From an uncultured Bacteroidota bacterium (GTDB taxonomy: Bacteria > Bacteroidota > Bacteroidia > Bacteroidales > GCA-2748055), in contig CAKZNC010000217.1 in the NCBI GenBank assembly GCA_937129385.1, forward strand, positions 1 to 48,006: DNA of 48,006 bases. The letters run 5' to 3'. The notes under the pieces were generated by a model that made no database searches, was not told the origin of the DNA, and saw nothing but the letters and a program-made list of their open reading frames with translations. Below, one piece after another: positions 363-20,859 of the stretch. The position numbers were made by a program, and so were the translations under genes. The stretch's first letter is position 1; each line of letters opens with the position of its first letter.

Positions 363-1634
363 TCACTCTCTGACGGCTGACGGCTGGAGACTGACCTCCG
401 GCCCATTAACAAAACTGTTCCAGTACATCTTTGCCTCTTCCGCTGTCATCGACCCATCGAAGACGATCATTCTGTATTGCAAAACATTGTCGACTCCTGG
501 AAGGATCAGCCATTCCCTCTGCCTGATGGGACAAAACTCAAAGAACAATTCACCGTTGTTGATCTCAGCTGGCCAGACCCGCATGGGTTCAGGGTGCTCC
601 CGATTATCAGGGTGACTCAGGAAGAGAATGCCTGATCTTCCCTCTTCAGTATCCGACACCCCCTCAACGATACACCACCTTGCACGGGTCCCGTCTGCCC
701 CGGCTCGTTCAATTCCTTCTGAAGTCAGCACTGTACTGTTCTCTTCGTTCCATTTCCCGGTTGCCCTGTATCCAAGTCCGCCTCCATACCTGTAGGCATC
801 AAATAGAATGGTATCCCTGAGCACATTTCGGAAAGTGGTTTTCATATCCAACAAATAGCGCTGGCCATTCGGTCCTGCGGGCGTGCAACACACCTCCCAG
901 AACTCCTCCATAGTGACCCGCTCTCCCCCTTCATAACCGAAATCCACATGCTCCTGCAATGTTGTGAACGTAGCCTGAACAGGGCCCTCAAATGCATCCA
1001 GGATGGCCTTCGCCCTCACGGTTCCCTCACCTTTGGCCAGGTTCCAGTAGTCGATCTCCCGCCCGTTGATATGGGTCAGGGTCCAGGGATTCCAGATTCC
1101 GTAATGGTGATAGTGATCAGGAGGCTGTACCCGGGTAAGCACCTCACCGCCTGGTGAAACGAGCGGATGTATATAGGCCGATCTCCGGTAAAGAGAATCA
1201 ATTCCCGGAGGAGGCATGGTCTCAGAAATATGGTATGTCAGTACCTCGGATTCATTGTTCAGGATCACCAGTTTATCTTCATCCTGCTGAATCAGGGCTG
1301 GAGTTTCCTGTTCCACTCCCCGCTTACCTGTCTCCTGGAAAAAATAGGACCTGGAATCTCCCTTATCCAGTTTTCCTTCAATCATGAAGATCACTGTATA
1401 ACCAGGCATGGTCAGATCGGCCTGGTATGCAATCTGCTCCACCACCTTTTCCTGTTCAAGAAACAGGCCGGGGTTCTCGGGCACATCCGATCCATACAGG
1501 GCCTCCAGGTCTATGCGCACCAGGCAATCGATGTAACTTCGCTCTTCGGCAACAACTGAAAAATACTTTTTCTCAGCGTTTGAACAGCTGTTAAATGCCA
1601 GGCAAATAATGATCAAAACAGAACCTATTCTCAT
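363..1634 (-). CDS. DUF6807 (PmoA family) lipoprotein
   Basis: The 423-residue protein has a lipoprotein signal (hydrophobic IIICLAFN then SCS, lipidation Cys about residue 17). The body carries the DUF6807/PmoA signature: PDHYHHYGIWNPWTLTHING near the middle (His-rich, probably a ligand site), EGPVQATFTT, a YRYGGGLGYR segment and a C-terminal FCPIRQREW. Family members are secreted proteins of carbohydrate-using bacteria; the PmoA label (methane oxygenase) is historical and no enzymatic role is established. The start codon overlaps the stop of the upstream UROD-like gene by 4 nt (ATGA), so the two are translationally coupled. The last eleven residues (EVSLQPSAVRE) are encoded by a 7-bp repeat array, so the C-terminal tail looks like a recent addition. 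Confidence 0.8.
   Translation of the reverse strand: MRIGSVLIIICLAFNSCSNAEKKYFSVVAEERSYIDCLVRIDLEALYGSDVPENPGLFLEQEKVVEQIAYQADLTMPGYTVIFMIEGKLDKGDSRSYFFQETGKRGVEQETPALIQQDEDKLVILNNESEVLTYHISETMPPPGIDSLYRRSAYIHPLVSPGGEVLTRVQPPDHYHHYGIWNPWTLTHINGREIDYWNLAKGEGTVRAKAILDAFEGPVQATFTTLQEHVDFGYEGGERVTMEEFWEVCCTPAGPNGQRYLLDMKTTFRNVLRDTILFDAYRYGGGLGYRATGKWNEENSTVLTSEGIERAGADGTRARWCIVEGVSDTEEGRSGILFLSHPDNREHPEPMRVWPAEINNGELFFEFCPIRQREWLILPGVDNVLQYRMIVFDGSMTAEEAKMYWNSFVNGPEVSLQPSAVRE
365..399 (-). repeat. Heptanucleotide repeat array A (inside 3' end of the DUF6807 gene)
   Basis: On the plus strand the units are GACGGCT (372-378), GACGGCT (379-385) and GGAGACT (386-392), followed by GACCTCC (393-399) and preceded by a degenerate ACTCTCT (365-371). 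Read on the minus strand this is GGAGGTC then AGTCTCC, AGCCGTC, AGCCGTC. The GACCTCC border and the preceding ACT are identical to the border of array B at 12933-12942, in the same reading frame relative to the host gene. Confidence 0.7.
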
Positions 1635-7481: not shown

Positions 7482-8321
7482 TTAGTTATCGATCACCACC
7501 TCCACGAGAACAGGCAGATGATCCGAAAAAAATTTCCTGTCCCTGGAATCTGCTAGTGCAGCATAACGCAGGACCCTGAAGTCTTCTGAAACAAATACAT
7601 AATCGATTCTGTCACCTTTTTTATCGTCATATGAAAACCCTGCCCAGGTTCCTGTGGCACCGTGGGGAGGAAGTTCAGTTACCCTGTACGCATCTGAAAA
7701 ATGTGACGAAAGCTTTTTAACGGGCACTGATGCGGGTGGAAGATTAAAATCGCCGCACAGGATCACCGGGTGCTTTCCGGCGATCTTCCTGGTCTTCCTG
7801 ATGATCAGGTCTGCAGCATTTTTCCTTGCACTCACTCCCACATGATCAAAGTGCGTATTGAATACCAGGAAAACCTCCCCGCTTTCCAGGTCTTTCAGCT
7901 CCACCCATGAACAGATCCGGATACAGGCTGCATCCCAGCCAAGTGCCGGTTCAGACGGATCTTCTGCCAGCCAGAAATGACCGGACCGGTTCTTCTCAAA
8001 CCTCAGGCTATTATAAAACACAGGGGAATACTCTCCCTTGATCTTACCATCATCCCTGCCAACTCCCACAAAATCATAGGCCGGAAATGCATCGTCGACA
8101 TATGAAACCTGTTCATGAAGGGCCTCCTGCAAACAAAAAATATCGGCCTTGTGAAATTTTAAAAGGTTCACAACATCCTGTTTCCTGTGGGGCCAGGCAT
8201 TCTCTCCGTCACCAGCAGTGTTGAGCCTGATGTTATAAGTGATCACATTCATCTGACCGCTGATGTTCACAAAAACGAAAATGAAAATCAGTGAAATTCC
8301 GGTTTTAAGTAATGCTTTCAT
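7482..8321 (-). CDS. Secreted endonuclease/exonuclease/phosphatase (EEP) family hydrolase
   Basis: The 279-residue product starts at MKALLKTGISLIFIFVFVNISGQ, a signal peptide; the frame extends upstream but the extension has no signal-like or conserved sequence. The EEP fold motifs appear in order: MNVITYNIRLNT, DIFCLQEAL (metal-binding Glu), VFNTHFDH, ILCGDFNLPP (catalytic Asp-Asn), DRIDYVFVS and the terminal SDHLPVLVEV (catalytic His). Relatives include secreted nucleases, sphingomyelinase-like phosphodiesterases and sugar-phosphate hydrolases, so the substrate remains open. It diverges from the membrane-protein gene at 8416. Confidence 0.85.
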   Translation of the reverse strand: MKALLKTGISLIFIFVFVNISGQMNVITYNIRLNTAGDGENAWPHRKQDVVNLLKFHKADIFCLQEALHEQVSYVDDAFPAYDFVGVGRDDGKIKGEYSPVFYNSLRFEKNRSGHFWLAEDPSEPALGWDAACIRICSWVELKDLESGEVFLVFNTHFDHVGVSARKNAADLIIRKTRKIAGKHPVILCGDFNLPPASVPVKKLSSHFSDAYRVTELPPHGATGTWAGFSYDDKKGDRIDYVFVSEDFRVLRYAALADSRDRKFFSDHLPVLVEVVIDN

Positions 8322-8961: not shown

Positions 8962-9597
8962 TTAGAACCAGTATCCTACTGTTACGATCCACTGACTGGG
9001 CCTGGCGTCCAGCGTGTGATCCATTCCGCCTACAGTAAATGAATCGCCATACTGTGAAAGCGATCCTTCATAACGGGCATCAATGGCAAGTTTCTTGAAC
9101 AAATCCACTCCAATGCCTGCCTGGAATCCCCAGGTCAAACCTCCTGTGAGTGTTTCAAGATCCTGCGAAACTTCCACCAGCTCATTCACAGAACTGATCA
9201 CCATGGAACCAACGGGTCCTGCATTGACCCTCGCCGGACCAAGCTTAACTCCAACCAGCAATGGGATGTCAAACCGGTTGAATTTTACATCAAGGAGCTC
9301 TTTTGTCCCGCTCTCATATACCTGCTCAACCACGCCTCCTGTGGTAGTGAAATAGAGTTCCGGCTGCACAAACAACATGGCAATGTTGACGCGGGTCATC
9401 AATCCAGCCTGGTAGCCGGCAACAGATTCCCCTGTAACAAGATCGTACACCTGTGAACCGTCTGTGATACCGGTGACCTCATCCATCGAAATGGAAGAGA
9501 AATTGATCCCTGCCTTCAGGCCATACTGGAATAGCTGAGCGTTTGCAGATACCGAAATAAAGAGAACTGCTATTGAAATAAATGCAAGTTTTTTCAT
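8962..9597 (-). CDS. Outer-membrane beta-barrel protein (porin-like, OMP_b-brl family)
   Basis: The 211-residue protein starts MKKLAFISIAVLFISVSANAQ, an SPI signal peptide; an ATG two codons upstream is also possible. The mature part alternates amphipathic strands: FQYGLKAGINFSSIS, SVAGYQAGLMTRVNIAMLFVQPELYFTT, VKFNRFDIPLLVGVKLGPARVNAGPVGSM, GLTWGFQAGIGVDLFKKLAIDARYEGSL and a C-terminal strand ending in aromatic Phe (WIVTVGYWF), the barrel-assembly signature. It is probably an eight-stranded barrel of the family common in Bacteroidota, with a structural or unknown role. A conserved inverted repeat lies upstream (9628-9661). Confidence 0.85.
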   Translation of the reverse strand: MKKLAFISIAVLFISVSANAQLFQYGLKAGINFSSISMDEVTGITDGSQVYDLVTGESVAGYQAGLMTRVNIAMLFVQPELYFTTTGGVVEQVYESGTKELLDVKFNRFDIPLLVGVKLGPARVNAGPVGSMVISSVNELVEVSQDLETLTGGLTWGFQAGIGVDLFKKLAIDARYEGSLSQYGDSFTVGGMDHTLDARPSQWIVTVGYWF

Positions 9598-10448: not shown

Positions 10449-11123
10449 CTATTTCCTGATGAACAACTGATGTGTTTTTTCCGAGATCTGAGCCGCCAGC
10501 TTGCCGGTCTGCATGCTTTTTAACTCCGATGCCCTGACATAGATATCATTGACCGGCAGCTCTGATTCATCGGTCTCTAGAAATATTTTATCCACCGGAA
10601 GGGACGCGAACGCCTTTGCTGTTTTCTCTGAATTGAGCAACGATGAGCCGAACGAAAGGTAATATCCAAATTTTACCAGGTCTTTCGCAATCTGCTCACC
10701 TCCAATGAAACCGTGAATGATCAATGGCACCCCGGATTTCCTGGATTTGGCAAAAGAGACAAGACGCTCGTTTGCCTTCACTGCATGTATGATGACGGGC
10801 AAGCCGGCGAATTCAGCAATTTCTACCTGTGCTTCAAATACCTTGCTCTGCAGATCCATATCAATCCCGGTAGTTCCGTCCAGTCCCGCTTCACCGATGG
10901 CCAGCACCTGGCAATTCTCGGTGGCAAGCTGCACCTTTTTTAGTGCATCTACAAGGTTTAGTTTCCCGATATCCCATGGATGAACGCCTACCGAATAGAC
11001 CCCATCCGGATCCGGATCAGGCGGATAATCCTGTGCACGGATACTCCGGATCACCCACTCCTTTGTACCTATTGAGGACCGGTGTGTATGTATATTTATA
11101 AGTTGTTCGGATGAAGGCATCAT
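10449..11123 (-). CDS. TatD family metal-dependent hydrolase
   Basis: The 224-residue protein is a short TatD-type TIM-barrel nuclease. Metal ligands can be followed along it: INIHTHRSS (HxH), [18 protein letters not shown] (Glu), PVIIHAVKA (His), [10 protein letters not shown] (His) and FLETDESEL (Asp). Relatives are 3'-5' DNases or D-aminoacyl-tRNA-related hydrolases; the physiological substrate is uncertain. It is about 35 residues shorter than the usual 260, mainly because several loops are reduced. Its start overlaps the gltX stop by 4 nt and its stop is 2 nt before tcdA, so it sits in a tRNA-related operon. Confidence 0.85.
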
Positions 11124-12649
11124 AACTGACTGAGTTCTTCAATTCCTGTCCGGATCCTGGAGAGGACCTCATCCTTGCCAAGGATCTCTGCCAAAATAAA
11201 CAAAGAAGGCCCCCTGGATGTTCCCACAAGCAATAATCGCCACGCATTCATGACGGCCCCCATCCCCCATCCGCGCTCTGTGATCACAGATTTCACAATC
11301 TCTTCAATCCTGTCAGCTGAAAAATCCTCAATCCCGGCAAGTACCTCGTTCAATGCCTGCATCAATTCAGGGGTGTCCTCTTTCCACCGCTTCTTTACCA
11401 CCTTCTCATCATATGAATCCGGTGCCTGGAAGAAAAAATCGGATTGCTCCCAGAAATCTGATACAAAATCTGCACGCTCACGGATCGCCTCCACAACACG
11501 TTCAATGAAGGATGGTTCAGCATCAATTCCTTTCTCATTCAATACAGGGGTAAACAGTCCTGCGAGCTCTGCGACAGACCGCTCCTGCAGATAATGATGA
11601 TTGAACCAACGGGCCTTTTCAGGATCGAACTTGGCCCCCGAGCGACCCACTTTACCCAGGTCAAAATCGGTGATCAGCTCTTCATGCGAGTAGATCTCTT
11701 TTTCCGTCCCCGGGTTCCATCCAAGGAAGGCCAGGATATTGATGCAGGCTTCCGGGAAATAACCTGCTTCACGGTATCCCGGTGATACATCCCCGCTTAC
11801 AGGATCCTTCCACTCAAGCGGAAAGACCGGGAAACCACCCCTGTCTCCATCCCGCTTGCTCAGTTTCCCTTTTCCGTCGGGTTTCAGGATAAGTGGCAAG
11901 TGTGCAAATTCCGGCATCGTTGCATCCCATCCCAATGCCTTGTAAAGAGATACATGCAGGGGTAAAGATGGCAACCACTCCTCTCCGCGGATCACATGGG
12001 TGATCTCCATCAGGTGATCATCCACTACATTGGCAAGATGATAGGTGGGCATGCCGTCCGACTTGAACAGGATCTTGTCGTCCAGGTTGGTGGTCTCCAT
12101 GCTGACCTTCCCCCTTACGATGTCCTCCATCTTTACTTCTGCTTCTTCAGCAAACTTAAACCTGACAACGTAGGGGCTCCCCTGATCGCGCAACTCTTTC
12201 ACCTCGTTTTCAGAAAGTGTAAGCGAATTCCGCATCTGCTTGCGGGTAGCTGCATCATATGTAAATGTCTGTCCCTCTTGATCATGCTCCTTCCTGGCCT
12301 TATCAAGCTCGTCGGGCGTGTCAAAAGCATAATAGGCATTCCCTGAACTGATCAGCTGATCGGCATATTCTTCATATTTTTCACGGCGTTCGGATTGACG
12401 GTAAGGACCAAGTGCCCCGCCGGCCTTTCCGCCTTCGTCTGGCGAGATCCCACACCATTCAAGCGATTCCAGGATGTATGCTTCGGCTCCTTCCACGTAC
12501 CTGTTCTGGTCGGTATCCTCGATCCTGAGAATGAACGTTCCTCCATGCTTCTTCGCAAACAGGTAATTGAACAACGCCGTTCTTAATCCTCCTATGTGTA
12601 ATGGTCCGGTCGGACTGGGCGCAAAGCGCACCCTTACTTTATTTGTCAT
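11120..12649 (-). CDS. gltX: Glutamyl-tRNA synthetase
   Basis: The 509-residue class I synthetase charges tRNA-Glu. The HIGH motif is [17 protein letters not shown] and the KMSKS motif is GKLSKRDGD. The connective [19 protein letters not shown] region and a C-terminal helical anticodon-binding domain are normal. I start at [15 protein letters not shown] (12649), with a TATCTTTG box 18 nt upstream; the six-codon extension to 12667 crosses this box. It leads the gltX-tatD-tcdA operon. The promoter's -33 side lies in heptanucleotide array B2. Confidence 0.95.
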
Positions 12650-12666: not shown

Positions 12667-12699
12667 CAAAGATAATGAATTAAAGGAGCAAAGGGCAAA
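12667..12699 (-). promoter_or_regulatory. gltX promoter, -33 side supplied by repeat DNA
   Basis: The minus strand has TATCTTTG (12667-12674), an exact TAnnTTTG. TTTG appears at 12689-12692 and 12696-12699, 14 and 21 nt upstream; the second fits the usual spacing. Both TTTG copies are parts of repeat units of array B2. Confidence 0.5.
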
Positions 12700-12733
12700 G
12701 CCAGTCGGCAGTGGGCAGCCGTCAGCCGTCAGC
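12685..12733 (+). repeat. Heptanucleotide repeat array B2
   Basis: Seven consecutive 7-nt units: GGAGCAA, AGGGCAA, AGCCAGT, CGGCAGT, GGGCAGC, CGTCAGC, CGTCAGC, then a degenerate CAGACGA. The units drift from the AAGGGCA type (as in array C) to the CAGYCGK type (as in arrays A and B) inside one array, which links the two sub-types. Orientation is opposite to array B. Confidence 0.75.
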
Positions 12734-12783
12734 CAGACGATGCCTGAATAAGGTAGACTGATTTGTAAACATATTATAATCCT

Positions 12784-12879
12784 GGATGCGATCCCGCTGG
12801 GATCAGGCCTCCGTTGGTCCTGTTGGTCCATGGGGTACCCTGCATCCAAACCTGCCCCGCAGCCCTGGCTGCACAGGGG
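12784..12879. repeat. Palindrome-rich core between inverted repeat arrays
   Basis: This stretch has nested perfect palindromes. GATCCC-GCT-GGGATC (12790-12804) lies inside a GGATGC/GCATCC pair (12784-12789 with 12842-12847). CCCC-GCAGCC-CT-GGCTGC-ACA-GGGG (12855-12879) forms a 10-bp stem with a 3-nt bulge. TTGGTCC occurs twice near 12815-12829. No credible gene is present. On the minus strand the second hairpin is the first structure after the TPR gene stop and may act as a terminator or mRNA 3' end. Confidence 0.55.
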
Positions 12880-12890
12880 ACCCACGACCG

Positions 12891-13784
12891 TCACACGGCT
12901 GCCGACTGCCGACTGCCGACTGCCGGCTGCCGACTGACCTCCCCTCCATACTTCTCCAAAAACTCCGGATAATCCCTTTCCCTTATCCAGCTCAACCCAG
13001 GCTCAACCCGGAGGATCTTCCGATAGGTTTCGTCGGCTTTGTAATAGGCCCCGTAATCTATATAGGCATCCGCCAGGTTCCGCAGGGTGTTCAGGTACAA
13101 CCAGTTTTTAACGGTGTCTTTCGGGTTGGATTCAAATAACTCTACAGCCTTCCGATAATGTCGGGCAGCCTCCCTGCTGTCTGGTCCGAATAGATCAGGC
13201 TTGAAAAATTGAATGTTGCCCTTTTCCATCCAGATCTGCGGATCATCCGGATCCAGCTCCATCGACCGGGCATTTTCCTTAATGGCCCTGGTGCCAAATA
13301 CCACCGCCTTTATCGGATTCAGTCCGACCTTGAATCCATATATGGCCCCAAGTAATGCATGGGCACGCGCCATTTCGGGAAATTGATCGAGCAGGATTTC
13401 CAGGTTATCTTCTGCTTCACGCACATATTCCCTGGCAACACGATCATGCCCGGCAGCAATTGAAAATGCAATGTATCCATATTGCGCGACAACCAGGTCA
13501 TACAACATATCATAACTCCCCGTGATCTCCCAGACGGACTGCATCTCTGTCATGGTGTTAAACCATTCATCCATCTCAGCGGAAATATATGCATGATAAA
13601 TCCGGTCATTCAATGACTGACTGTAAACCTGTGATAAAGCCATCACGACAAAGAGAAGAAGCAGAACAATACGTATAGATACAGGGGAACGATGTATGAA
13701 TTCCCGTTCTGATTTCAATTGAACAGTCTCCTCCCGGTGATCGACCCCAGCATGCAAACGGCGGAGCATAAACTCTTCTATCAT
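12891..13784 (-). CDS. Tetratricopeptide-repeat protein, membrane-anchored or secreted
   Basis: The 297-residue protein has a hydrophobic segment (VSIRIVLLLLFVVMALSQVYSQ) about 45 residues in, then helical TPR-like repeats, clearest in ARSMELDPDDPQIWMEKGN, EAARHYRKAVELFESNPKD and ADAYIDYGAYYKADETYRKIL. I chose 13784 because an AGGAG site precedes that ATG and the upstream crtW stop is 1 nt away. An ATG 6 codons earlier would overlap crtW. The last 15-16 residues (EVSRQPAVG SRQSAAV) are encoded by repeat array B. Role unknown; the location suggests co-transcription with crtW, without evidence for a carotenoid function. Confidence 0.7.
   Translation of the reverse strand: MIEEFMLRRLHAGVDHREETVQLKSEREFIHRSPVSIRIVLLLLFVVMALSQVYSQSLNDRIYHAYISAEMDEWFNTMTEMQSVWEITGSYDMLYDLVVAQYGYIAFSIAAGHDRVAREYVREAEDNLEILLDQFPEMARAHALLGAIYGFKVGLNPIKAVVFGTRAIKENARSMELDPDDPQIWMEKGNIQFFKPDLFGPDSREAARHYRKAVELFESNPKDTVKNWLYLNTLRNLADAYIDYGAYYKADETYRKILRVEPGLSWIRERDYPEFLEKYGGEVSRQPAVGSRQSAAV
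12894..12942 (-). repeat. Heptanucleotide repeat array B (inside 3' end of the TPR gene)
   Basis: Plus-strand units are CACGGCT (12894), GCCGACT (12901), GCCGACT (12908), GCCGACT (12915), GCCGGCT (12922), GCCGACT (12929), then the border GACCTCC (12936-12942). On the minus strand the unit is AGTCGGC. Since 3 x 7 = 21 nt, the array encodes a 7-residue period (SRQPAVG, SRQSAAV). The border is identical to that of array A and lies in the same frame. Confidence 0.8.
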
Positions 13785-19881: not shown

Positions 19882-19916
19882 GCCCTTTGCCCTTTGCTCA
19901 TTGCCCATTGCCAACT
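19882..19916 (-). repeat. Heptanucleotide repeat array C (at 3' end of the NmrA-like gene)
   Basis: Five units on the plus strand: GCCCTTT, GCCCTTT, GCTCATT, GCCCATT, GCCAACT. The last unit overlaps the stop codon of the NmrA-like gene (complement of 19915-19917). On the minus strand the array reads AGTTGGC, AATGGGC, AATGAGC, AAAGGGC, AAAGGGC. Confidence 0.75.
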
Positions 19917-20748
19917 AAACAAACTCCTCCCGATTTTCCTCCACATACTCCTTCAGTGTTGCCGGCTTTCTCCCGGTTATATTCTCAAAACCATCTGAAT
20001 AACTTGCAACCTGACCTTTCTTTATTTTCCCGAAAACAGCAATCATGGCTTCGATATATTCTTCCGAATACCCGCGAGCCTCCATCTCCTTCCGGTATTC
20101 ATCGTCATCCGGATCCTGGTAACTGATCTTCCGACCAAGCACATCTGAAAAGATATCTGCCGCCCTGAAATGATCCATGGATTCCGGTCCGGTAAGATAG
20201 ATGGTCTCACCTTCATATGCACCCGGATTCTCCATCACCACCGCCGCAGCTTCGCCAATATCCCTTGTATGGATAAAAGGTGCTTTCCCAGCTCCGGTTG
20301 GCAAAAATATCTGATCCCTCTCCCTGATGTCTTCGGCCTGGTACATCTCGAAGTTCTGCATGAAGAAATTTGCTTTCAGGAAGGTAAAGTTCATATCACT
20401 CTTTTCGATCAACTCCATCAATCCGGGATATGAGGCAACAAACACAACATGCTTTACATCCCCTGCAATTGCCTCCTCCACCAGCGGCTTCAGAAGCTCC
20501 TGGGCACCTGGTGTTGCAGAGGGTCCGCACAGGAATAGAAGTTCCTTTCCCTCCAGGGCCGGACCAAATCCCGACGGATCCTTGAAATCCAGGTGTACCG
20601 TATCTGTATCAAATCCGAATTCCTTTTTCGCCCTGTCTGCATCTCGCGTAGCTGCAGTAAAATGAATTCCTCTCCTTTGAAGTGCCTTCGAAAGGGGCAA
20701 TCCGATATTCCCCGTTGACGCTGTAACAAGAATTTTTGATTGTGCCAT
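19915..20748 (-). CDS. NmrA-like / atypical SDR NAD(P)-binding protein
   Basis: The 277-residue protein begins KILVTASTGNIGLPLSKALQRRGIHFTAATRD, a TGxxGxxxxxxL nucleotide-binding loop of the atypical SDR/NmrA type. It continues with LLFLCGPSATPG, VKHVVFVASYPGLMEL, FTLFLKAN-like residues (FTFLKANFFMQNF) and EGETIYLTGPESMDHFRAAD. The catalytic Tyr-Lys pair of classical SDRs is not evident. Relatives are NAD(P)H-sensing regulators and quinone reductases (QOR2-like). A GGAGG site sits 4 nt before the chosen ATG; the adjacent ATG one codon upstream is too close to it. Single gene, convergent with the carotenoid arm. Confidence 0.8.
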   Translation of the reverse strand: MAQSKILVTASTGNIGLPLSKALQRRGIHFTAATRDADRAKKEFGFDTDTVHLDFKDPSGFGPALEGKELLFLCGPSATPGAQELLKPLVEEAIAGDVKHVVFVASYPGLMELIEKSDMNFTFLKANFFMQNFEMYQAEDIRERDQIFLPTGAGKAPFIHTRDIGEAAAVVMENPGAYEGETIYLTGPESMDHFRAADIFSDVLGRKISYQDPDDDEYRKEMEARGYSEEYIEAMIAVFGKIKKGQVASYSDGFENITGRKPATLKEYVEENREEFV

Positions 20749-20859
20749 CATTCCTCCAATTTCTTTTAATTCCCGGGATCGCTCCCTGAAAGTCCAACAC
20801 AACAGTGACCTATTGGTTCAAAGAATTTCGATCATTTCCCCTATCTTTAATGCACACCA

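Follow-up and report, generated by a model that had tools for sequence, protein, structure and literature searches.

The window, by which the whole 48,006-nt stretch of DNA analysed here is meant, carries four arrays of tandem 7-bp units, designated A, B2, B and C. Arrays A, B and C lie at the 3' ends of minus-strand genes, and B2 lies instead upstream of a tRNA synthetase gene. The features concerned are:

363-1634, minus strand: ORF with a DUF6807 domain (Pfam PF14100); array A is read as its last codons
370..399, minus strand: array A, CTGACGG/CTGGAGA units, AGT-type on the minus strand, in the last codons of the DUF6807 ORF
11120..12649, minus strand: glutamyl/glutaminyl-tRNA synthetase gene (PF00749, PF19269), with its ATG at 12649
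12683..12734, plus strand: array B2, a mosaic of AGT-type (F) units, left member of an inward-facing pair
12735..12895, no strand: spacer between B2 and B, with the palindrome GATCCCGCTGGGATC at 12790-12804
12891..13574, minus strand: TPR-repeat protein gene, its 3' end overrun by array B; longest ORF to 13802
12896..12936, minus strand: array B, AGTCGGC on the minus strand (GCCGACT on the plus strand), right member of the pair
19882..19912, minus strand: array C, AATGGGC/AAAGGGC/AATGAGC units on the minus strand
19915..20751, minus strand: NmrA-like NAD(P)-binding protein gene, ending at array C

The window was scanned for period-7 runs with a score of at least 14, using 60 order-2 Markov shuffles of the window as the control. 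Exactly three runs were found, at 12702-12734 (the core of B2), 12899-12936 (B) and 19882-19912 (C), and no period-7 run of this score occurred in any of the shuffles. Among the other periods from 4 to 15 there was a single run, of period 14, which is a harmonic of array B. TRF agreed with the scan and added positions 370-386 of array A (2.4 copies, score 34), which by itself is no better than the other short TRF matches of the window. Arrays B2, B and C are real; A is too short to be accepted alone and owes its credibility solely to other arrays of the genome that use its unit, CTGACGG. With a laxer extension B2 covers 12683-12734 and changes its units without a shift of register, in the order AAAGGGC, AGTCGGC, AGTGGGC, AGCCGTC. 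The original prediction, made from the letters of the window, had described four period-7 arrays, three of them at 3' ends of minus-strand genes, and units interconverting within B2; it was upheld in each of these points, with the reservation given for A.

B2 and B share one intergenic gap, where they are inverted and face inward. B2 is located approximately 33 nt upstream of the start of the minus-strand synthetase gene. Array B is translated as the C-terminal tail of the TPR protein, giving 14 residues more than in the ortholog of genome G003, which is without this tail. The gap holding B2 and B measures 307 bp in the window versus 141 bp, free of arrays, in the G003 ortholog (166 bp more). 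Array C lies 2 nt from the TAG of the NmrA-like ORF; at the junction, TAG followed directly by TTGGCAATGGGC, the AG of the stop codon is the start of the first unit. Neither a terminator or promoter consensus nor a terminator-like hairpin with a T tract was found around B2 and B, and the window gave no Rfam match at the gathering threshold. The original prediction had noted neither that arrays point inward nor that B2 and B form an inverted pair, and it had made no connection with stop codons.

Heptamer arrays in the source genome and its relatives

The source genome (G000; 4.28 Mb, 99.7% complete) was searched for three successive units of each type, with the reversed unit as the control. TTAACTC (two or fewer mismatches) gave 221 matches against 0 for its control, TGCCGAC 180 against 117, and AGTNNGC (exact) 212 against 50. 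The TGCCGAC and AGTNNGC controls gave matches because G000 also uses the reversed unit, CAGCCGT, in its arrays; the reversed TGCCGAC control was 0 in all 40 relatives screened. The figures 221, 180 and 212 count units rather than arrays, because neighbouring matches overlap. The arrays of the window are not the only ones in the genome, and the suggestion that one interconverting family extends beyond the window loci was borne out.

In all, 677 kb of G000 were read, comprising 20 blind stretches, 40 stretches picked for arrays, and the window. Genes were called with a purpose-made codon model, which misses some genes and gives approximate gene starts. Across the 677 kb, in stretches partly chosen for arrays, 74 runs of period 7 were found versus 0-4 for periods 5, 6 and 8-12. 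The blind 257 kb held three period-7 runs, with at most two for any other period of 3-21, and five arrays at a laxer cut, about one per 50 kb. Densities were taken from the blind stretches (L031-L050) only, since L061-L100 and the stretches of other genomes had been chosen for holding arrays. A run was present within 250 nt of 2 of 37 contig ends in the blind sample versus about 0.45 expected, at most a hint of an excess. Six of the 85 sampled arrays lay within called genes and the rest outside them.

Taken from one strand, the units mostly begin with A[AG] (AGTCGGC, AGTGGGC, AGTTAAG, AGTTCGC, AATGGGC, AGCCGTC and others). AGTCGGC was the commonest, with 150 of 855 units; AGTGGGC was counted 51 times, AGTTAAG 45, AATGGGC 20 and AAGGGGC 18. 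Thirty unit types occurred at no fewer than three loci and made up 58% of the 855 units. The 85 arrays use 32 distinct main units, where local seeding would lead one to expect a mean of 81.6 and a minimum of 76 (500 draws), in a sample partly biased by loci that had been picked by TGCCGAC. The four arrays of the window belong to a single family, spread over the genome, whose mosaic arrays of 7-bp units occupy the gaps between genes.

Three successive TGCCGAC units were found in only 2 of 40 relatives (G004 and G035). They were absent from all three congeners, one of which is only 68% complete, and this absence shows an apparently lineage-specific expansion. The congener G001 has heptamers of its own, of the CTGGCCC, GGTTGCT and TTCGACA types, and no heptamers were found in the 71.5 kb of G003 that were read. 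The position orthologous to the G000 array L069:5405 is occupied by a GCCAAAA array in G001 and by a 12-mer repeat in G003. The AGTNNGC class is patchy, being present in 34 of 149 genomes of the order and 33 of 133 genera (source genome included, the three congeners excluded from the draw), and is abundant in G464, G506, G491, G552, G439 and G534. TTAACTC arrays occurred in 28 of 395 genomes of the phylum, again including the source genome, and AATTGAG arrays in the family f34, which belongs to another class. A scan of genome contigs gave, among the matches listed, hits in many phyla; these were kept out of the counts.

Polarity of arrays and their position at gene ends

An assignment of orientation by G versus C content, under which 40 of 60 arrays pointed away from the nearest gene, proved too coarse, and unit motifs were used in its place. 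AGT-type units were scored as F and ACT-type units as R, and gaps with fewer than three lexicon units were dropped in G000, f34, G001 and three other genera. The sampled stretches of G000 held 48 gaps with three or more lexicon units, 35 with one orientation and 13 with both. All 13 ran F then R, and 0 of 665 unit pairs were inverted. This order was seen in all four gene arrangements, the arrays of a pair being 13-288 bp apart; divergent gaps were F then R in four cases, F only in two and R only in none.

Two-orientation gaps also ran F then R in 6 of 6 cases in G491, G506 and G499, which represent three other genera, and in 6 of 6 cases in f34 (G433 and G362), the latter figure resting on a stricter motif list revised after the first count and on larger stretches of G433 and G362, with G122 left out. 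The first f34 count, made on 3-kb loci with a loose list in which AATT palindromes can match both strands, had given seven gaps, five of them with two orientations (two F-R, one R-F and two mixed); the R-F gap, L315, fell below the count under the stricter list. G001 gave one F-R and one R-F gap, a weak result with two units per side in both, and the contrary gap, 2 kb long, contains two loose motif pairs separated by 1.1 kb. At 3-kb loci of G001, a first look had found 11 gaps and none with both orientations.

The position of array ends relative to genes was also tabulated. Forty-six array ends of G000 lay within 20 nt of a gene 3' end, of which 42 read away from the gene and three toward it, with one tie; in the stretches sampled, where gene starts are approximate, no array end came this close to a gene 5' end. 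These counts support the preference for gene 3' ends that had been proposed from the window alone. The corresponding ratios of away to toward were 10:0 in f34, 6:0 in G491, G506 and G499, and 5:2 in G001. At 21-100 nt from a 5' end in G000, 16 array ends read away and six toward. At the same distance from a 3' end two read away and 10 toward, and some of these ends are the far side of an array whose anchor is the opposite gene. Beyond 100 nt, array ends reading toward a gene outnumbered those reading away for either kind of gene end (15:7 and 23:10), as is expected if many of these are likewise far sides. Of 26 array groups in G491, G506 and G499, 20 pointed away from whichever gene edge was nearer. 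Single-orientation gaps of G000 were less regular, 3 of 8 '++' and 3 of 11 '--' gaps being oriented to the gene that faces them with its 5' end, and some single-orientation arrays read toward the nearest gene. Taken together, the counts for two-orientation gaps show that paired arrays read inward from the flanking genes.

TAG was the stop codon of 32 of the 45 genes ending within 20 nt of an array, versus 118 of 480 called genes (Fisher P = 4e-12); one of the 46 array-adjacent genes ran to a contig edge and was left unscored. The first unit was in register with the A of the stop codon at 13 of 40 G000 junctions (1/7 expected, P = 0.003), register 0 having been picked after inspection of the junctions. 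Examples are window position 19915, where TAG precedes TTGGCAATGGGC, and L094, where it precedes TTAAGAG. Offsets of 4-6 accounted for 21 of the 40 junctions, such as TAG followed by GTCAGTCGGC. In f34, where units start with AA, 5 of 10 junctions were in register and 9 of 10 stops were TAA, an enrichment that was not significant (P = 0.20).

The C-terminal length differed from that of the G003 ortholog in 7 of 8 array-adjacent genes versus 9 of 35 others (P = 0.002), as counted from the listing for the window, L080, L065 and L069. Four of the seven shifted stops differ by just 1-2 residues, and for two rows, L069:5401 and window 7482, the alignment to G003 is broken; against G001, L069:5401 stands at -12. 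One gene in L080 is 11 residues shorter than in G003 and four shorter than in G001. On this evidence gene ends are overrun by arrays, the new stop often being composed of a T and the first AG. At gene 3' ends the arrays lie on or beside the stop codon, which is mostly TAG.

Comparison with described repeats

The heptameric STRR sequences of heterocystous cyanobacteria are dispersed tandem heptamers. The G000 arrays resemble them in this but belong to a different phylum. As general dispersed heptamers (STRR-like repeats or heptameric SSRs) the G000 arrays qualify by an excess of period 7 and many intergenic copies. Calothrix heptanucleotides are mentioned in PMC4692102.

According to that paper, heptamer arrays are over-represented in bacteria without an accepted cause (PMC4692102). 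In two Xanthomonas genomes GGGAATC arrays make up 186 and 183 patterns, which are dispersed and for the most part intergenic, with 70 convergent pairs in Xcc and 75 in Xac. The ORF lying 5' of the G-rich strand is the nearer one (28 versus 160 nt); the units of these arrays are heterogeneous, and array length and sequence differ between related species (PMC4692102). The GGGGA(C/T)T arrays of Nostoc include few convergent pairs and are only 68% intergenic. Both repeats have one G-rich consensus per genome and are discussed as G-quadruplexes (PMC4692102). The G000 arrays share with GGGAATC the heptamer period, the dispersion, the convergent pairs and a very similar polar geometry, with the strand reading away from the nearer gene, single-orientation arrays being less regular. 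They differ in having many mosaic unit types, of which the commonest is without GGG, so that GGG or GGGG is not present in every unit, and in being coupled to TAG stops; no such coupling was seen for GGGAATC or GGGGA(C/T)T arrays in the available part of PMC4692102.

TAACTGA direct repeats are reported from Beggiatoaceae, Cyanobacteria and five Bacteroidetes, some of them beside other heptamers (PMC4679880). The original prediction had noted no description of such repeats for Bacteroidota, and these five cases run against it. Like the G000 arrays the TAACTGA repeats are 7-bp, intergenic and patchy; 7-nt indels between strains and, in Elizabethkingia, contigs ending in arrays are described (PMC4679880). 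They consist of a single unit and, in the Beggiatoaceae genome examined, usually stand immediately before start codons, whereas G000 has many units located mostly at stop codons, with no array end within 20 nt of a 5' end versus 46 within 20 nt of a 3' end. Thirteen TAACTGA sets in one genome overlap stop codons because the unit itself encodes stops (PMC4679880); the commonest G000 unit, AGTCGGC, encodes none, and TAACTGA is absent in any form from the 40 commonest units of G000. A partial literature search of open-licence papers gave no mosaic polar heptamer arrays of Bacteroidota, and no match between stop type and unit was recognised. To judge by that search, mosaic polar arrays in Bacteroidota with coupling to stop codons appear to be new; heptamer arrays and the Xanthomonas-like geometry were known before.

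Origin of the arrays

Our tentative preference, which falls short of being probable, is for a mechanism in which 3' ends at gene edges prime the copying of arrays already present, with slippage and purifying selection at genes acting as well. Within this mechanism we infer the copying and priming steps. Loss of intergenic sequence, after a break or fork collapse, would leave a DNA 3' end back at a gene edge. The purines at the tip of this end (A or AG, from a stop codon) could pair with the pyrimidine-rich strand of an existing array, and the paired end would be extended by copying of the array and then rejoined. Repeated copying with 7-nt slippage would give rise to common units, mosaics and inward polarity from both sides. 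Selection would just halt encroachment into genes, and the arrays would mostly be neutral or selfish filler and not regulators.

End-primed copying is supported by the unit sharing, the polarity, the stop-codon link, the C-terminal encroachment and the differing repeats in an orthologous gap. It is weakened by the unclean polarity in G001 and the mixed loose count in f34, by single-orientation arrays that read toward the nearest gene, and by the 2:10 ratio at 21-100 nt from 3' ends. Offsets of 4-6 at 21 of 40 junctions are not predicted by simple AG priming, and priming at stop codons alone leaves the inward polarity of divergent gaps unexplained. The stop shifts that are small or rest on broken alignments, and the P of 0.20 for TAA in f34, weaken it further. 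The polarity could equally reflect selection for a directional function.

The main rival of end-primed copying, which we consider somewhat unlikely, is that the arrays act as directional boundaries of transcription. A polymerase entering a gene from the gap would read the pyrimidine-rich ACT strand, which could recruit Rho or halt antisense and read-through transcription, the AGT strand being placed in 3' UTRs; polarity and position would then be set by selection. The F-R order in all four gene arrangements of G000, its recurrence in several genera and a second class, and inward reading near both edges (42:3 for array ends no more than 20 nt from a 3' end and 16:6 for those 21-100 nt from a 5' end) agree with such a role, and the lack of a terminator-like hairpin with a T tract around B2 and B suggests that some other way of ending transcripts may be needed there. 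However, just 48 of 329 gaps of 30 bp or more hold a counted array, even in a sample enriched for arrays. The TGCCGAC type is absent from the congeners, the units of G001 are quite different, and some of these, like GGTTGCT, are G-rich on the strand that a boundary would want C-rich. Arrays also stand at sites where genes gain or lose C-terminal residues.

It is decidedly improbable that the arrays are remains of a fold-back mobile element with terminal arrays, in which an AGT array, filler and an ACT array would move together and decay to one-sided remnants. The spacing of inward pairs (13-288 bp) and the 166 bp by which the window gap exceeds that of G003 would suit such an element, as would the 10-mer AGACGATGCC (AGACGATACC in L071) that comes after the left array in three places (the window, L071 and L081) and, in reverse orientation, ahead of an array in L095. 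A count of 14-mers over the sampled loci, however, found no recurring filler beyond that 10-mer and short palindromes, and a common filler element between paired arrays was rejected. No array adjoins the Y1 transposase gene of G000.

REP elements are dispersed intergenic palindromes mobilised by RAYT transposases. The G000 arrays are likewise dispersed and intergenic, but they are not palindromic and none is a neighbour of the G000 gene for a Y1 transposase, which adjoins two GCGGAATKAATTCCGC palindromes in a 3.3-kb locus without a period-7 run scoring 11 or more. Y1 transposase matches were obtained in 6 of 7 genomes tried, and 7 of 8 Y1 loci were without a period-7 run scoring at least 11, L391 being marginal; mobilisation of the RAYT/IS200 kind was rejected. 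G003 was the only one of the seven to give no Y1 match, and it was also the one in which 71.5 kb of sequence yielded no heptamers; seven genomes are too few to give this any weight.

Addition templated by a reverse transcriptase, in the manner of telomerase or DRT10, by which tandem-repeat DNA would be made from an RNA template, is very unlikely. The single polarity on both sides of a gap does resemble a head-to-head fusion of two extended ends, and DRT10 shows that bacterial enzymes can make short tandem-repeat DNA, with 9-nt repeats in one system (PMC12632851). No RVT_1 (PF00078) match was found in G000, G001 or G003 by a search whose control was positive in 3 of 14 genomes and which could miss very divergent enzymes, and reverse transcriptase was rejected on this basis. 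Thirty unit types at three or more loci of one genome also ill suit a single template.

Selection for RNA or DNA hairpins formed by paired arrays is just as improbable. Inward pairs are inverted repeats, and some pairs in f34 abut and are near-complementary by eye (L340). In G000, however, the mean duplex energy with the own partner was -26.8 versus -28.5 with permuted partners from other gaps (P = 0.71), and hairpin selection was rejected there for want of excess complementarity. Moreover, 35 of the 48 counted G000 gaps have a single orientation, and the ACT-AGT order, which is hairpin-capable too, occurs in none.

Independent replication slippage of local heptamers at each locus has little to recommend it as the whole explanation. 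The dominance of period 7 (74 runs versus 0-4) fits the polymerase-footprint idea quoted in PMC4692102; slippage at each locus is contradicted by the common units, and leaves the sharing of units across loci, the polarity and the stop-codon link unexplained. Slippage probably does contribute to change in array length. Formation of G-quadruplexes, as proposed for GGGAATC and GGGGA(C/T)T arrays of equal unit length and like geometry (PMC4692102), is hardly credible here, since AGTCGGC, AGTTAAG and the AATTGAG of f34 contain no GGG, which is present just in some units (AGTGGGC, AATGGGC, AAGGGGC), and yet form polar arrays. As this geometry is found in several Bacteroidota genera with commonest units lacking GGG, its cause probably lies elsewhere than in GGG or G-quadruplexes.

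Extending end-primed copying beyond this genome is speculative, and we regard it as unlikely that the heptamer arrays of several phyla are all scars of one general DNA-end process. In such a process, a template of single polarity would supply A[AG]-initial heptamers to extend the 3' ends that intergenic loss leaves at gene edges (often a stop codon), and the extended ends would be joined head to head. If true, there would be telomere-like end additions in bacterial genomes, with lineage-specific units and a polarity independent of unit sequence.

The direction rule and the stop-codon link make the origin of heptamer arrays testable, and the stop-codon link together with the differing repeats in one gap of three species leads to concrete predictions on the birth of arrays. 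The arrays may also explain some of the differences at gene ends between close species that annotation reads as protein evolution.

Repeats of other periods in congeners

G001 and G003 are two congeners of the genome under study (G000). No heptamer runs were found in the 71.5 kb read from G003; 12-mer and longer repeats were found in three of its sampled stretches (L249, L252 and L254), in gaps orthologous to array sites of G000, and one of these repeats (CAGGAACCTGAA units) is apparently coding. The sampled stretches of G001 contained 22 period-8 runs alongside 22 period-7 runs, as against a single period-8 run in 677 kb of G000 (the window, 20 blind stretches and 40 chosen for arrays).

Contig ends and words outside the arrays

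In seven G000 contigs (C9, C12, C22, C71, C132, C181 and C202), arrays were located no more than about 60 nt from where the contig stops. The short-read assembly may therefore be broken by arrays, and long arrays may be under-counted.

The 10-mer AGACGATGCC immediately follows the left arrays at three loci, the window (12735-12744), L071 (6208, with one change) and L081 (9144), and it precedes an array in reversed form at L095 3957-3966. The 14-mer GTATGCTGAATGTT was present at seven sampled G000 loci, at all of them outside arrays.

Dispersed palindromes and gene ends

The following features were recorded in G000:

C164, about 9008-9343 (L392, about 1400-1860): IS200/RAYT-like Y1 transposase gene
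Window 12790-12804; L065, about 430-530; L080, about 12755-12835: further short dispersed intergenic palindromes (GATCCCGSCGGGATC-like, CCCTTCGACARGCTCAGGG and a GGTGCCCTTCGGTTACCCGGGGCTAC-like element)

Two GCGGAATKAATTCCGC palindromes flank the Y1 transposase gene, both on one side, and the palindrome was found again, as GCTGCGGAATTCAT, in at least four sampled G000 loci, L080 among its sites. From this position and recurrence, GCGGAATKAATTCCGC is probably the REP of the species. A stretch of about 212 bp in L069 (9584-9795; contig C70), which matches many G003 sites at 72-88% identity, is possibly a MITE or an RNA element.

One gene in L069 has the C-terminus GPSTGSGHD, which is the translated CCCTTCGACAGGCTCAGGGC palindrome (about 8120-8148), and is three residues longer than in G003. 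Gene ends may accordingly be encroached upon by palindromes as well as by arrays.
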